The notes under the pieces are model-generated. The model was not told where the DNA came from. It ran no database searches and was given only the letters and a program-made list of their open reading frames with translations. Below, in pieces: positions 13,608-14,958 of a stretch of 31,777 nucleotides of DNA; the stretch's first letter is position 1; each line of letters starts with the position of its first letter. The translations under genes were made by a program, and so were the position numbers. Origin of the DNA: a candidate division KSB1 bacterium (GTDB lineage Bacteria > Zhuqueibacterota > JdFR-76 > DREG01); contig JADFJB010000051.1 in the NCBI GenBank assembly GCA_022566355.1, positions 1-31,777 on the forward strand, read 5' to 3'.

Positions 13608-14345
13608 TTATTTGGAATCGGGATCCATAAACTTAGTATTCGGATGCTCTTGCTTCCACGTGCGCCAGCGAGTTTTAGTCGATTGGAATTCTGCAAGTTT
13701 GCGGTCTGCATATACCCCGCTGATACAGGTTAAACCGTCTTCTCCTGGCATGTGATACCATAAACTTTCGGTTTCATAATCATACAATACAAAAGTGAAG
13801 TCATACGTCCAGCCACTAGCACTTAGTGTAAGGACATTGTTACCACCGTCCGAATTCGATAATTCCCGGCTGTACACGGCAGCCAAATCGACCAGCGGTC
13901 AGTAAGCCACAGCCACGTGCACATCGCCAAATTTCTCATCGGCGACTTCGCTAGAACTCAGCCTTTGAATAGAATAAGCACGAGCATCCTCTTCCAAGCT
14001 GATCCCAAGAACTAGAAAAGTGCTGCCATCATCCGGATAACCAGGTTGACCAGGCCAAATCATTTGAGGGTCAAGAATTGGTGGGATCGCGTTCGGCCCC
14101 AGTCCAAACTGAAATTTGACGGGCTCGAAGCCATATTGACGCACTGCGTGACCTATTTCCCACTTTTTACCGGTTGCATCGACGATAAAGATCTCAGTTG
14201 TATCTGTCTGCACCGGGTCATCTGTGATTACTTCATCTTCCGGATTAGGATTTTGAAGATATTCTACGGTTGTTTCATCTTTACACGCACTCAGAAAGAC
14301 GAGGAGAACAACAACGAAGAAACTGGAAATACTGGAAGACTTCAC
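13608..14345 (-). CDS. DUF3179 lipoprotein with in-frame TGA (possible selenoprotein)
   Basis: A frame of 246 codons that is open except for one TGA at 13899-13901 (codon 149 from the GTG at 14345). Before it: a lipoprotein signal with lipobox LSAC, then LVLGISLEEDARAYSIQRLS and KFGDVHVAVAY. After it: PLVDLAAVYSREL, SGWTYDFTFVLYDYETESLW and RWRTWKQEHPNTKFM. This is the DUF3179 pattern '..G.arAYp...l..hEi.ND..g..pv.vtYCPL......', and the TGA falls precisely on the Cys of YCPL. A hairpin (stem GGCTG/CAGCC, seven-base loop) lies 14 bases after the TGA, at 13868-13884. Either the TGA is read as selenocysteine or this is a fresh nonsense mutation. GGAG precedes the GTG by five bases; a TTG at 14375 is an alternative start. 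Function of the family is unknown. Confidence 0.72.
13868..13884 (-). promoter_or_regulatory. Candidate bacterial SECIS-like hairpin
   Basis: Read on the minus strand, GGCTG, a seven-base loop CCGTGTA, then CAGCC. It begins 14 bases after the in-frame TGA of the DUF3179 gene, so the loop starts about 19 bases after it, within the range usual for bacterial SECIS elements. Weak outer pairs (T.G) can lengthen the stem. The loop does not start with G unless the closing G-C pair is opened, so support is modest. Confidence 0.3.
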
Positions 14346-14489
14346 ACCTGCTCCATAAACATTTATTCTGCACAAGTTATCTATTTTGTAAAATAACAGT
14401 TCAAGAACAAAGTTTATTCCCCTAATCAGAGGCAGGGTTTGTTAATGAATTCATCCCGTGGTTCTATGGGCGGTCCTGTCCTTCTTTAC

Positions 14490-14697
14490 CTCATCTGTGC
14501 AATTGTGATTACGATGATTAAAAGTAAACCCGTATTGGTAAATCTGAATCATTGGAAAACGGGAAGGTTGTACGAACAACACTATCTGCCGCTTCATATC
14601 GGCCGTCCAATAGGGTGAAAATCAGTTCATGCCAGTGATTAAGTTCAGCAGACGGAAAAAAAACGGATATTCTCATAATCACAATTGCACCGATGAG
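14490..14697. repeat. Imperfect 25-bp inverted repeat pair (MITE-like remnant?)
   Basis: The left arm begins CTCATCTGTGCAATTGTG at 14490 and the right arm, reverse-complemented, begins CTCATCGGTGCAATTGTG (14697 downwards). 23 of 25 positions agree by my count. The arms enclose about 158 bases with no gene. Terminal inverted repeats of a small non-autonomous element, or the legs of a long RNA hairpin, would both look like this. No target-site duplication was identified. Confidence 0.45.
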
Positions 14698-14958
14698 ATT
14701 AAGACTGCTGCTGCGAGCAATGCCTATGAGCTGATTATAGTTCTCTATTGTTTTTAATTAATGTGTTTAATTAAAATATAGCTATTGGAGCAGCACCTTC
14801 CTTATTTATTTTTACACAAATTTAACGACATTACTATCACAAATCTATTCATTGAATATTGTAAAGTTGGTTCCTAATAAACACAGGAAATTTATATTTA
14901 AATATCTCTGAAGAAACTATCCCATGAATTTAACATTCCCAAATTCCTTATTTTTTAG

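Follow-up and report, generated by a model that had tools for sequence, protein, structure and literature searches.

The DUF3179 lipoprotein gene on the minus strand of contig JADFJB010000051.1, from a candidate division KSB1 bacterium, almost certainly is not broken: its apparent stop is read as selenocysteine (Sec), because the same UGA, followed by a conserved hairpin, recurs in dozens of relatives. The gene very probably encodes a secreted, lipid-anchored protein, with SelB and tRNA-Sec inserting Sec at UGA codon 149 under the direction of that hairpin. As judged from comparisons between homologous sequences, the UGA is translated through and replaces a conserved Cys; the residue inserted would be Sec. 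The window (the whole stretch of 31,777 nucleotides analysed) contains the following features.

13608..14345, minus strand: coding sequence of the DUF3179 lipoprotein, GTG start, TAA stop, 245 residues including Sec149 (basis: translation with TGA as U, Pfam, purifying selection on both sides of the TGA)
14283..14345, minus strand: signal peptide ending in the lipobox LSAC (basis: sequence, and lipobox Cys kept in homologues)
13899..13901, minus strand: in-frame TGA, the Sec codon, in the alignment column of the conserved DUF3179 Cys (basis: frame and homologue alignment)
13867..13885, minus strand: SECIS-like hairpin UGGCUG-CCGUGUA-CAGCCG, apical loop starting 19 nt after the UGA (basis: covariation and synonymous constraint)
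13725..13727, minus strand: Cys207 (GLTCISG), which may serve as partner thiol (located by counting to codon 207 in the frame starting at 14345)

The gene and the codon at its conserved Cys site

Read 5' to 3' on the minus strand, the frame extends over 246 codons (14345–13608), from a GTG preceded by GGAG to a TAA at 13610–13608. The TGA at 13901–13899 is its sole in-frame stop, and there is no frameshift. A first-pass annotation, which gave no strand, had described a 246-codon frame running from lipobox to C-terminus and broken by one TGA, located exactly at the conserved DUF3179 Cys. Translation agreed with the former statement, and the latter was confirmed both by the alignment and by a Pfam DUF3179 match (PF11376) that spans the TGA. 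This match scored 98 bits, for a cut-off of 27, and aligned residues 95–253 of the read-through protein with positions 2–150 of the profile, which places the protein in the family. The Cys of the lipobox (codon 14285–14283) was invariant in 15 close homologues, and found in 34 out of 38. NCBIfam had no family for this protein, and no PDB chain matched it by sequence.

The window's genome is a draft of 4.62 Mb in 213 contigs, with an estimated completeness of 98.5%. It contains four DUF3179 loci, on four contigs, all of which have TGA at this residue ([YW]-U-P-L); three are short, and one is of a longer UPLA type. This longer paralogue (L001, C101:8183-9043) has its UGA in WUPLAN, with neither Cys nor Thr at +3, and all seven sequences of its type placed in the tree have TGA.

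Inspection of the Cys-site codon in 67 distinct relatives, taking in DUF3179 first-domain matches that bear the Cys-site motif, revealed 40 TGA, 27 TGC or TGT, and no other codon. One exception was seen, a weak domain from a distant phylum (L048), with Ser in a GLSDS context and no PL motif. Genome contigs were also scanned for the short subfamily with seed patterns lying outside the UGA site. This yielded 42 copies with TGA, one extra copy with TCC and none with a Cys codon, the TGA copies being spread over Calditrichota, KSB1, Latescibacterota, Gemmatimonadota, Acidobacteriota, Zixibacteria and others. In a tree built without the site, the short lipoproteins formed a clade (SH-aLRT 95) in which all 47 sequences have Sec, and the Cys form from genome G028 branched just outside it. 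Alignment of homologues, which the first-pass annotation had proposed as a check, thus returned U or C at this position. Calditrichia bacterium IP29b_bin.73 (L158) has two Sec copies together with a third copy that has Ser (TCC) at the Sec position.

Downstream of the TGA, comparison of the window gene with its nearest homologues gave pS values of 0.73–0.86, versus pN values of 0.13–0.24: synonymous sites are near saturation and the protein is conserved. The gene therefore presents an in-frame UGA aligned with the Cys of homologues, and conserved coding sequence after it. Ordinary genes of the window also terminate at TGA, so that a global reassignment of this codon does not apply.

The RNA hairpin following the UGA

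The first-pass annotation had pointed to a GGCTG...CAGCC hairpin starting 14 nt past the TGA, and this element was found as described, with a stem pairing 13885–13880 to 13872–13867 and a loop, CCGTGTA, at 13879–13873. Folding of the single 54-nt sequence was unremarkable (z −0.73), and an Rfam search of the window gave no match. Over 36 representative sequences, 91.2% of cells were paired, versus 78.2 +/− 1.3 after shuffling. Changes on both sides of the stem numbered 29, versus 8.6 in shuffled data, and affected five of the six pairs. The covariation score was 0.489, as compared with 0.259 +/− 0.021 for shuffled and at most 0.114 for slid alignments. Compensatory pairs were apparent at individual positions, one of them being U-A in 21 sequences, C-G in 14 and A-U in 1.

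Synonymous codons were then resampled so as to preserve the protein. The stem of the TGA group keeps 4.55 pairs out of 5, versus 2.93 +/− 0.14 upon resampling, whereas no excess was observed for the Cys homologues (2.19, versus 2.09 resampled). Synonymous constraint was focused on codons +5 to +10 downstream of the TGA, in the TGA group only, and was absent from the Cys group. Several codons following the TGA are nearly fixed in the TGA group (Val GTG 35/40, Ala GCC 19/19, Tyr TAC 34/38). The SECIS-like element suspected initially is thus a conserved and covarying hairpin with a synonymous-codon constraint, and these alignments indicate that selection acts on the RNA structure downstream of the UGA.

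The published consensus for bacterial SECIS elements allows a loop of 3–9 nt, a stem of 4–16 bp, a spacing of 16–37 nt and an MFE of −7.5 or lower (PMC13188914 Fig 2). The window hairpin lies within these limits, with a 7-nt loop, 6 bp and a spacing of 19 nt, and its energy, −7.9 kcal/mol when the 22-nt hairpin is folded and −11.5 over 48 nt, is below the limit. The published rule also places a G in the first two positions of the loop. In the window the G is third by strict pairing (CCGUGUA), and comes second (CGUGU) only if the loop-closing C-A is counted. In many relatives the loop-closing pair is U-A, so that the G falls within the first two positions there.

Selenocysteine genes and the competing readings

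In the proposed mechanism, SelB would deliver Sec-tRNA to UGA codon 149, and the hairpin, with its apical loop 19 nt past the UGA, would direct insertion of Sec. The first-pass annotation had suggested looking for selA, selB, selC and selD in the same genome, and one of the four was found. The selD gene is present (375 bits, for a cut-off of 125) and has itself one TGA, in CGUAAK, whereas selA, selB and selC were not found in the 213-contig draft, only part of the selC candidates being scored. SelD is encoded at C12:35945-36865 (L078), and a hairpin directly follows its UGA. Absence of selB and selC from a complete genome had been named as an observation that would speak against Sec; the present genome is a draft, and carriers of the same subfamily that are filed as single chromosomes have selB.

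In two genomes of the same family, G001 and G002, selA and selB are adjacent, and selC was found in G001. A gene for a membrane protein, adjoining selAB in both, was not found in the window's genome, which fits a missing locus, and proves nothing. Among the relatives, 20 of 21 TGA-bearing genomes had selA or selB (17 had both, three had one), the only one with neither being the window's draft. The association between TGA-type DUF3179 and selA or selB gave p=0.002 in a Fisher test uncorrected for relatedness. For further carriers, selB was found in 15 out of 17, including both Latescibacterota records titled 'chromosome'. Genome G028, which has neither selA nor selB, has Cys codons in all the DUF3179 copies read, including a relative of the short subfamily. 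Single components were missing elsewhere: selA was not detected in drafts G032 and G033, and G002, G013 and G056 have selA, selB and a UGA-type DUF3179, yet no tRNA-Sec was found by Rfam or by a lineage-specific model, which may be due to the limits of the search, to loss during assembly or to a selC that has diverged. The distance between selC and selB is 1–2 kb in several relatives, so that one gap could remove selA, selB and selC together. Since relatives and further carriers mostly have selA or selB, and single components are also absent from other drafts that have UGA genes, the three missing genes are most economically, and most probably, explained by a gap in the draft.

These missing genes are also what a pseudogene, resulting from a recent nonsense mutation (an alternative raised in the first-pass annotation) or from a sequencing error, has in its favour. 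However, the same TGA is shared by four paralogues, each on its own contig, and recurs across dozens of independent assemblies, the frame has no frameshift or other stop, and past the TGA the protein is conserved while synonymous sites are saturated. That the TGA recurs at a single residue, with conserved coding downstream, refutes this reading, to which we leave a practically negligible chance. It is very improbable, too, that an opal-reading tRNA-Cys, of the selC* kind that some Deltaproteobacteria have together with SelB* (PMC7609411), inserts Cys at the UGA, which would give a protein with Cys and not Sec. The existence of such tRNAs elsewhere (PMC7609411), the Cys found at this site in other DUF3179 proteins and the failure to find selA in the draft would suit this decoding, but relatives have selA and ordinary tRNA-Sec with anticodon UCA, the UGA-bearing SelD points to the use of selenium, and, in the subset of the genome's tRNAs inspected, the sole tRNA-Cys seen has anticodon GCA.

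Loss of the Sec machinery in this species, the UGA genes being relics or depending on some unknown factor to be read, would account for the lack of selA, selB, selC and the selAB neighbour gene in a draft that is 98.5% complete. This appears slightly less probable still, as the same-family genomes G001 and G002 retain adjacent selA and selB, other well-scored drafts miss single components (selA in G032 and G033, selC in G002, G013 and G056), the proximity of selC to selB in several relatives means that one gap could have removed all three, and five UGA genes, including that of SelD, stay intact in frame, with hairpins. We give an equally slim chance to a species that reads at least five UGA genes without SelA, SelB and ordinary tRNA-Sec, by an undescribed or replaced route still using a SECIS-like hairpin. 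Decoding of the UGA as Sec by SelB and tRNA-Sec is thus the reading that we retain.

A variant motif in a listed selenoprotein family

DUF3179 is already listed as a selenoprotein family, with the motif UxxC/T (PMC9312934, PMC13188914), a listing credited in both to Zhang and Gladyshev 2007; the statement in the first-pass annotation that some DUF3179 proteins are annotated in this way was therefore correct. That the window gene is an additional member of this family, with a variant motif, is well supported. It shares with the listed proteins the PF11376 domain, the replacement of the same conserved Cys by Sec (UGA) and a bacterial SECIS-like hairpin immediately downstream of that codon. In contrast to the DUF3179 selenoproteins as reviewed, it is a short single-domain lipoprotein, and has UPLV (UPL-V/I in its clade) instead of UxxC/T, a motif that is descriptive and not family-defining. 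At +3, the short clade has V in 25, I in 7, C in 1 and T in 0 of 38 sequences. Cys-form DUF3179 proteins (YCPLCG or YCPLTG) have a homologous domain with the active-site position aligned, but they use a Cys codon, have no hairpin constraint after it and are mostly longer. SelD in the window's genome is likewise UGA-recoded, with a hairpin after its UGA, but is an unrelated enzyme, of the Sec pathway.

Sec149 may act as the nucleophilic or redox residue of a lipid-anchored protein, outside the cytoplasmic membrane. Its partner in the UPLV subfamily would be Cys207, in those proteins that have it, or an external thiol, rather than the usual +3 residue. Among 38 homologues, Cys207 is the only other recurrent Cys besides that of the lipobox; 29 of them have Cys at this position, 8 have Gly and 1 has Ser. 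Because of these Gly and Ser residues, Cys207 was rejected as a universal resolving residue. The oxidised form could be resolved through a bond between Sec149 and Cys207 or by an external thiol, a redox chemistry that we propose tentatively and hold to be rather doubtful.

The AlphaFold model of the lipoprotein (pLDDT 90.7, pTM 0.80) gave no Foldseek match at E≤0.001. With VIA-align, the top 20 rows were all Rieske proteins, with Z scores of 3.2–6.6, below the yardstick of 7–8 used for models without a clear match. Profile comparison with Rieske by hhalign was not significant (probability 0.6%), and there was no Pfam Rieske match to the protein. The Rieske fold was not adopted, and is kept as a weak lead. 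The near-gapless VIA-align ranges would place Sec149 off the cluster ligand, contrary to an alignment by eye of CPLH with UPLV.

A gene for an exported protein of about 310 residues (GAWTQKK...YYxKxS) adjoins a short DUF3179 selenoprotein gene, in either orientation, at 11 loci (L003, L147, L148, L150, L152, L153, L157, L161, L163, L170 and L174). Locus L003 belongs to the window's genome, where the neighbour is at 544-1497 on the minus strand; there is none beside the window copy. This protein has no Pfam match, looks by eye like an outer-membrane barrel, and is likely a functional partner of the short DUF3179 selenoproteins. Upstream of the window gene is a 32-nt inverted repeat (14483-14514 and 14673-14704, 88% complementary, 158 nt between arms), which may be a small mobile element or what is left of one.

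The DUF3179 lipoprotein gene is thus intact, although automatic annotation would split it or call it a pseudogene. The DUF3179 lipoproteins of Calditrichota, KSB1 and several other uncultured phyla constitute a lineage whose members, as far as they were placed in the tree, are all selenoproteins. Such a lineage, with Sec retained nearly throughout and the usual +3 partner lacking, is useful for asking what Sec does beyond Cys in the DUF3179 family.
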